The position numbers were made by a program, and so were the translations under genes. The notes beneath the pieces were generated by a model, which searched no databases, was not told the origin of the DNA, and was given only the letters and a program-made list of their open reading frames with translations. A DNA stretch of 64,000 nt, from assembly GCA_900314865.1 (NCBI GenBank), contig OMWW01000001.1, positions 65,457-129,456 on the forward strand, given 5' to 3'. Of this stretch, positions 8,421 through 9,286 are shown one piece after another. Every line of letters starts with the position of its first letter. Within the stretch, counting starts at the first letter, position 1. The DNA comes from an uncultured Erysipelotrichaceae bacterium (GTDB lineage Bacteria; Bacillota_I; Bacilli_A; RFN20; CAG-826).

Positions 8421-8447
8421 AAAAAACGTCCTCACTGAGGGCGTTTT
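8421..8447. terminator. Bidirectional terminator after the P-type ATPase
   Basis: AAAACGTCCTC pairs with GAGGGCGTTTT through 11 pairs (one G-T) around the loop ACT. Read on the minus strand it is followed by TTTTTTATTATT, so it also ends the RNA candidate at 8542-8421. Confidence 0.9.
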
Positions 8448-8542
8448 CATTTGCCAACTAGGGCAGTTATCATCCTAGATCGCTGCATCCATTTCCGAAG
8501 AAATGCGTCGTGGTCGTACACTGGTTCTCCACCTTTGGCAAC
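8421..8542 (-). ncRNA. Candidate standalone structured RNA, unidentified
   Basis: About 120 bases with no ORF. On the minus strand: closing helix TTGCCAA (8541-8535) with TTGGCAA (8457-8451); hairpin CATTTC-TTCG-GAAATG (8505-8490), a classic UUCG tetraloop seen only in this orientation; hairpin CTAGG/CCTAG (8478-8458); possible GGTGG/CCAC pairing near the 5' side. It is preceded by an extended -10 (TGaTATAAT) and followed by a strong terminator. It does not resemble SRP RNA, tmRNA, RNase P RNA, 6S RNA or any riboswitch I can name. No minus-strand gene lies downstream, so a trans-acting RNA is more likely than a leader. Confidence 0.55.
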
Positions 8543-8545
8543 ATT

Positions 8546-8569
8546 ATTATATCAAACATTTCGTGTTTG
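8546..8569 (-). promoter_or_regulatory. Extended -10 promoter with a dyad in the spacer, for the RNA candidate
   Basis: TATAAT (8551-8546) is preceded by TGA, giving a perfect TGnTATAAT extended -10. No good -35 is visible. Just upstream is the dyad CAAACA-N5-TGTTTG (8553-8569), placed where a repressor could block polymerase; it could instead be a weak hairpin at the end of the neighbouring pseudogene. Confidence 0.5.
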
Positions 8570-8576
8570 GATATAG

Positions 8577-9012
8577 TTATTTAACGTTATATGTAATGTA
8601 TATGGTCTTAATCCAAGCTTTTTTTGAATCATTACCATCGATTTGAATAGATACTTTAATAAATCCTCTATCTTTTCCTCCACGCCTTAAGTAGTAATTA
8701 AATGTATCTTTATAAATAGGATCTTTTCGATAGTCGAAATAATTTTTTATTCCATTAGGAACCAAACGAAGATCTCTGACTTTTAAATCGTGACCATATT
8801 CAACAATGTGATCAATCCTTGATTCGTTGCTTCTCGCTCTATCATCAGTTAAATATAGATCATAACCATGATTTCTTTATCTCTTCAATCAAATGTTCTG
8901 GGTTGTAGTATCTCGGCTTTCTTCTTGTCATATTGTAGTTCAATAATAAAGCCATTTTTAAAGCATGTTCAAGACTTATTTTTTGACCTACAAAATTATC
9001 ACTATATTTATA
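8577..9012 (-). pseudogene. Frameshifted remnant of an unrecognised gene
   Basis: Two reading frames join into one protein-like sequence. The first part (9012 to about 8872) includes SLEHALKMALLLNYNMTRR and YYNPEHLIEEIKK; one base too many near 8871 then breaks the frame, and the second part continues HGYDLYLTDDRARSNESRID...YNVK to the stop at 8577. In the unshifted frame translation ends three codons after the break. A stop lies just upstream of the first part with no start signal, so the 5' end is also lost. About 145 residues remain; I do not recognise the family. The longest intact piece is the last 62 residues. Confidence 0.6.
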
Positions 9013-9136: not shown

Positions 9137-9286
9137 ATGAAGAACAAGAGAAAAGCAAAGAACACAAAAGCAATAAATAAGAATAAAGAATCATCTATTC
9201 AAAAAGAGACTTTGTTACAGATGGATAAATCAATGAAGAACATCAATAAAGGCGAAGTATACGGCCCAATTGATTTGAAACAATAA
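9137..9286 (+). CDS. Small basic protein, 49 residues, RelB-like C-terminus
   Basis: ATG 9137 to TAA 9286. The N-terminal half is very rich in Lys and Asn; the last 13 residues, NKGEVYGPIDLKQ, resemble the end of RelB/DinJ-type antitoxins (pattern G-x-VYGP-D). TTGATA-16-TAACAT upstream could be its promoter; GGGA 7 bases before the ATG is a weak ribosome site. A terminator follows at 9307. No toxin partner is adjacent. It may be a real small protein or an antitoxin remnant; coding status is uncertain. Confidence 0.4.
   Translation: MKNKRKAKNTKAINKNKESSIQKETLLQMDKSMKNINKGEVYGPIDLKQ

Follow-up and report, generated by a model that had tools for sequence, protein, structure and literature searches.

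What is the RNA that can be read on the minus strand between 8541 and 8421 of the window (the whole 64,000-nt stretch of DNA analysed here, from an uncultured Erysipelotrichaceae bacterium), and does it act alone? The sequence-only reading had described a standalone RNA with an extended -10, three helices and a terminator, and had proposed a trans-acting regulatory RNA or a new structured class, possibly under a repressor. Its elements are real, and all are read directly on that strand. The extended -10, TGATATAAT (TG-A-TATAAT), lies at 8554-8546, 4 nt before TTGCCAA, and is followed by a structured core of 92 nt (8450-8541) that is defined by homologs, covariation and an unbiased MI-APC analysis. 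The core is closed by the seven-pair helix P1 (TTGCCAA, 8541-8535, with TTGGCAA, 8457-8451), which covaries, and contains a helix GUGG/CCAC (8532-8529 with 8513-8510) that is almost invariant across copies. The six-pair hairpin CATTTC-TTCG-GAAATG at 8505-8490 (arms 8505-8500 and 8495-8490) is present at the apex, though its UUCG loop is not kept in all copies. The helix CUAGG/CCUAG (CTAGG/CCTAG in the DNA; 8478-8474 with 8462-8458) also exists, but it is no simple hairpin as had been supposed: CAGU (8523-8520) pairs with ACUG (8467-8464) in its loop, forming an H-type pseudoknot. An intrinsic terminator of 11 pairs (7+4 around one internal mismatch) with a T run folds at 8448-8421. The window RNA has a better folding energy than its shuffles (z = -2.3) and keeps 26 of 26 tested pairs. 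The earlier statement that the RNA holds no ORF was upheld; a short ORF inside it was considered and rejected, as the length of the core is free to vary (88-102 nt), the distances between anchors do not come in multiples of 3 and every frame contains stops.

The RNA is a member of a previously undescribed family of folded RNAs, as one of the two earlier suggestions had it. Among 41 relatives, a search at the DNA level turned up 33 matching places, spread over 16 genomes, and a covariance model built from 25 copies then placed the RNA in 68 of the 279 genomes of the order, at 128 places in 13 of 56 genera, all within one bacterial family; a sample of 395 genomes from the class contained no copy outside that family. 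Rfam, searched at gathering and at relaxed thresholds, gave only chance matches, and neither the window RNA nor any of 12 loci of other RNA subtypes scored above the gathering threshold. The search of relatives and Rfam, which the sequence-only reading had named as a check, has thus returned a conserved, covarying family that matches no Rfam entry at any of several subtypes. A scan of genome contigs for an exact 18-mer pattern matched four unrelated genomes, which were judged to be chance hits. The RNA unit is 88-102 nt long, and longer with inserts; in some subtypes additional modules are inserted at two places. Such modules are seen at L025, L027, L106, L114, L118, L158 and L160, one subtype having GCTAATAGATGRCCTCTAACG... 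and another TGTACGTCC...GGTAACGTCAG, and L158 has both. Two adjacent full units occur at a few loci only.

The fold of the RNA, a pseudoknot that a long helix closes off, is written in the changes between copies. RNAalifold finds four helices, namely the closing one, GUGG/CCAC, that of the apical hairpin and CAGG/CCUG; 15 of 21 pairs show double changes that preserve pairing. When the pseudoknot is included, 97% of cells pair and double changes are found in 19 of 28 pairs, compared with 8.4 for shuffles and 1-5 after sliding the strands; all four CAGU/ACUG pairs covary. An MI-APC analysis of 65 distinct copies, which assumes no structure, gives nearly all of its top ranks to helix pairs, and its best 32 include the pseudoknot pairs 22-75, 19-78, 20-77 and 21-76. 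The compensatory changes that had been called for in the three helices first described were therefore found in the relatives' copies, and they extend to every helix except GUGG/CCAC and a short two-pair helix; GUGG/CCAC and the pairs 35-36/66-67 (alignment columns) hardly vary and so draw no support from covariation.

The RNA does not normally stand by itself. Directly upstream of it, on the same strand, is a gene family encoding proteins of about 120 aa, and for 60 of the 66 protein matches in the order the RNA follows 21-176 nt downstream on the same strand, mostly at 33-49 nt. Of the six exceptions, two (L158, L160) do have the RNA when inspected by eye; the others are a match at the end of a contig, a fragment of 30 residues and two divergent homologs beside which no RNA can be seen. 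Counted by genome (n = 279), 48 have both, 3 the protein only, 20 the RNA only and 208 neither (Fisher P about 5e-34). The protein almost never occurs without the RNA, while the RNA often occurs without the protein: 54 of the 128 RNAs have no such gene within 1.5 kb, an asymmetry that suggests a toxin and its antidote. Protein and RNA distances are correlated (Mantel r = 0.70, 0 of 5000 permutations); the two sets of subtypes co-diversify, and joint inheritance may account for part of the correlation. Purifying selection acts on the protein (dN/dS about 0.04-0.16), and where its gene is broken, as in the window, G007, G145, G209, G149 and G088, the RNA is retained. No partner protein was found outside the bacterial family among 392 genomes drawn from the phylum, and phage and plasmid collections and viral contigs held no homolog of the three proteins tried. 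Many modules lie in one chromosomal hotspot by an acyl-carrier-protein-like gene (L011, L023, L083, L085, L087-L090, L096), the one at L083 right behind two tRNA genes.

The protein is best regarded as a putative small, metal-independent RNase-like toxin of the BECR superfamily. An alignment of 33 members has invariant R41, H49, H55, D61 and R91 and a near-invariant K100; H49 sits in the helix 46-53, and the last strand of nearly all members carries S/T. PBECR domains, MuF-C among them, are described as RNases of BECR fold that have a helix histidine together with a C-terminal S/T (PMC5512222). Profile matches are weak, to MuF_C in 5 of the 33 members (best 1.7e-5) and to PBECR3 in 4 (best 2.4e-4), and most members match no Pfam model; the first member matches no curated family model. 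The AlphaFold model (pLDDT 84.6) has as its best PDB fold match the RNase toxin BrnT (probability 0.85, E 0.06), its matches among viral models include phage MuF-C proteins, and no Foldseek match has an E below 0.001; these fold matches too are weak, and they agree with those of the profiles. No match was found to the PDB by sequence, nor to ToxN/PemK in Pfam, PADLOC or PDB sequences. Other proteins take the upstream position in places. A second family with a MuF_C match (1.4e-6 at L083, above the cut-off) lies about 120 nt before RNA copies (L011, 914-1393; L083, 2298-2876; L087, 3226-3858) and may be an alternative partner; a profile comparison between it and the usual partner was not significant. 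At L019 a PBECR4 protein (E 7.3e-19; 1624-2130) replaces the usual partner directly upstream of the RNA.

In the gap behind the putative toxin gene, the RNA copies carry transcription signals of their own. Of 86 copies, 77 have their best -10 exactly 4 nt ahead of the core and 48 have a perfect TATAAT (3.5 expected in shuffles); a terminator-like hairpin with a T run follows in 75 (shuffles, 7), its sequence differing between copies. Transcription of the RNA from a promoter of its own is thereby strongly indicated. Where two units stand in tandem, as at L082, there is no room for a promoter of the second, so that the two would be co-transcribed. The earlier description of a standalone RNA is hence right as to promoter and terminator, but as a rule the RNA forms a module with a protein gene, in which it comes second. 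Likewise the dyad CAAACA-N5-TGTTTG does exist in the promoter of the window copy, but a repressor is not supported, because the enrichment of dyads with arms of at least 6 nt is no more than modest (29 of 86 copies have one, where mononucleotide shuffles lead one to expect about 11).

In the window the partner gene, encoding the putative BECR-type toxin, is broken. Searches with relatives' proteins (tblastn) and the sequence itself place it at 8577-8931 on the minus strand, with an N-terminal part at 8931-8872 and a C-terminal part at 8876-8577 in different frames (tblastn, frames 1 and 2), separated by a small frameshifting deletion; relatives hold intact copies. The region before it (8932-8972, minus strand) may contain its promoter and start, without a Shine-Dalgarno site, and the -35/-10 matches at 8972-8932 are weak and not above shuffle expectation. 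Across the family, 1 of 33 partner genes has a Shine-Dalgarno sequence before it, whereas among other genes 34 of 79 do. At L015, L020, L021, L022, L099, L016 and L118, dyads (for example ATAAGAC-N3-GTCTTAT) overlap the partner-gene promoter, and in the window a 25-nt inverted repeat (8996-9020/9046-9070) lies upstream of the gene; an operator and a leaderless mRNA are possible for these genes. The window module has a cation-ATPase-like gene on one side and a gene for a tadA-like deaminase on the other (names from reading the sequence). In one relative (G002) about 19 nt separate the same two genes and the module is absent, so it is most simply an insertion here, for which no convincing flanking repeats were found. 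Between module and tadA-like gene, the insertion also contains an ORF of 49 aa (9137-9286, plus strand) without a Pfam match. The genome of the window has three further RNAs, and at G000:C5 a partner gene that is intact and accompanied by its RNA.

We consider it probable that gene and RNA form a type III-like toxin-RNA antitoxin module of new components and in reversed gene order, toxicity, binding and transcription being putative. The upstream gene would encode the RNase-like toxin of about 120 aa, and the RNA, made from its own promoter and folded into the pseudoknot, would bind the toxin and block it directly. The toxin mRNA would be near-leaderless and weakly translated, so that the RNA would be in excess. 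In the window, the toxin gene would have been lost to the frameshifting deletion and the RNA left as an orphan antitoxin. A directly binding RNA antitoxin fits the asymmetry of occurrence, the survival of the RNA when the gene breaks, the co-diversification, the lack of antisense pairing and the near-absence of Shine-Dalgarno sequences. Thirty-one solitary RNAs (e.g. L004, L005, L006, L008) have 94% canonical pairs, compared with 95% in paired copies, so that selection seems to act on them. Such a share would not be kept by an antitoxin left over without a use, and the orphans may have another role or partners in trans. We speculate, while holding it unlikely, that the RNA is a general inhibitor of several BECR-type families (the 120-aa proteins, MuF_C and PBECR4), the solitary copies being selected as antidotes to nucleases made elsewhere, for example mobile-element toxins or MuF-C effectors injected by phages.

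Alternatively, RNA and protein could together be a working ribonucleoprotein effector, in which the RNA guides or activates the nuclease, for example against phage RNA, and inhibits nothing. The tight coupling and co-diversification would suit such a particle, as would the subtypes with extra modules inserted at fixed places and the defence-type genes nearby in places: a GmrSD restriction gene adjoins the RNA copy at L094 (3226-4800), and an MqsRA-like toxin-antitoxin pair is found at L117 (2182-3001). However, the core is conserved and has no hypervariable guide segment, the RNA is often alone where the protein is not, and broken protein genes retain their RNA, all of which makes an effector decidedly less probable than an inhibited toxin. 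A still poorer account is that of an independent trans-acting RNA pairing with mRNAs, the place of which behind the protein gene is the chance inheritance of a mobile cassette. Such an RNA would be expected to have its own promoter and terminator and many solitary copies of intact structure, as this one does, but the linkage in 60 of 66 protein matches spans many genera, the conserved bases sit in a compact pseudoknot and there is no excess pairing with the partner mRNA. The earlier proposal of a trans-acting regulatory RNA, in the sense of base pairing, finds no excess complementarity to the partner mRNA behind it, and protein binding is the likelier mode of action. The same observations bear on a type I system, in which the RNA would repress the toxin mRNA by base pairing; a small toxin gene beside a small RNA recalls such systems, but this reading is scarcely credible, as the start region and the coding sequence give mean duplex-energy z values of +0.25 and +0.11, respectively, the RNA's own start region ranks at random among others, and the RNA lies on the same strand without overlapping the gene. 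A chance or repeat-derived DNA element without RNA function, to which several copies per genome might point, is contradicted by the covariation, pseudoknot included, and by fixed promoter spacing with differing terminators, and can be dismissed.

To our knowledge, few kinds of toxin are held in check by a folded RNA, namely ToxN-like proteins and AbiF. With the type III systems ToxIN, CptIN and TenpIN the module described here shares a pseudoknot RNA by the gene of a small putative endoribonuclease, and at some loci tandem RNAs. Type III antitoxins are built of tandem short repeats (about 34-36 nt), lie upstream and are co-transcribed, in the order promoter, antitoxin, terminator, toxin (PMC5086642). 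Here, in contrast, the RNA is a single unit of about 92 nt, the putative toxin gene comes first and is followed by an RNA with its own -10 and terminator, and the protein has no match of ToxN/PemK type, its best fold match being BrnT. The RCd22 RNA of AbiF (RF03085) is also about 100-130 nt long, has a sigma-A promoter and a terminator, and neutralises the adjacent toxin, an Abi_2 protein, by direct binding; its motifs are stem-loops of 33-35 nt, and it lies upstream of the toxin gene in one transcription unit (PMC12373285). The likeness extends to an RNA of that size with promoter and terminator beside a toxin gene, here a putative one, whereas our RNA lies downstream with its own promoter; RF03085 has no match in the window or at the other loci, and Abi_2 none either. 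Type I systems differ in that the RNA here has no excess complementarity to the mRNA of the putative toxin. The protein resembles BECR nucleases (PBECR families, MuF_C, RelE, BrnT) in size, helix histidine, C-terminal S/T and weak profile and fold matches, and some RNA copies adjoin clear PBECR4 and MuF_C proteins, but most members of the 120-aa family match no model. For RelE-type toxins, the known antitoxins are proteins. An account of BECR nucleases (PMC11980606) mentions no RNA antitoxin, and a literature search, with subscription journals largely outside its reach, found no description of this RNA-protein module. As the defining order, repeats and toxin of type III and AbiF systems are absent, the module is not filed with either, though on the present reading it would work alike; in manner it is probably type III-like, with a new RNA and a new protein.

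If this is true, RNA antitoxins would gain another fold and extend to a different superfamily of toxins, in reversed gene order and with separate promoters, which would suggest more than one origin of such antitoxins. The loci with intact pairs, broken toxins, orphan RNAs or tandem RNAs would then offer a natural series in which the decay of an antitoxin and anti-addiction can be followed.
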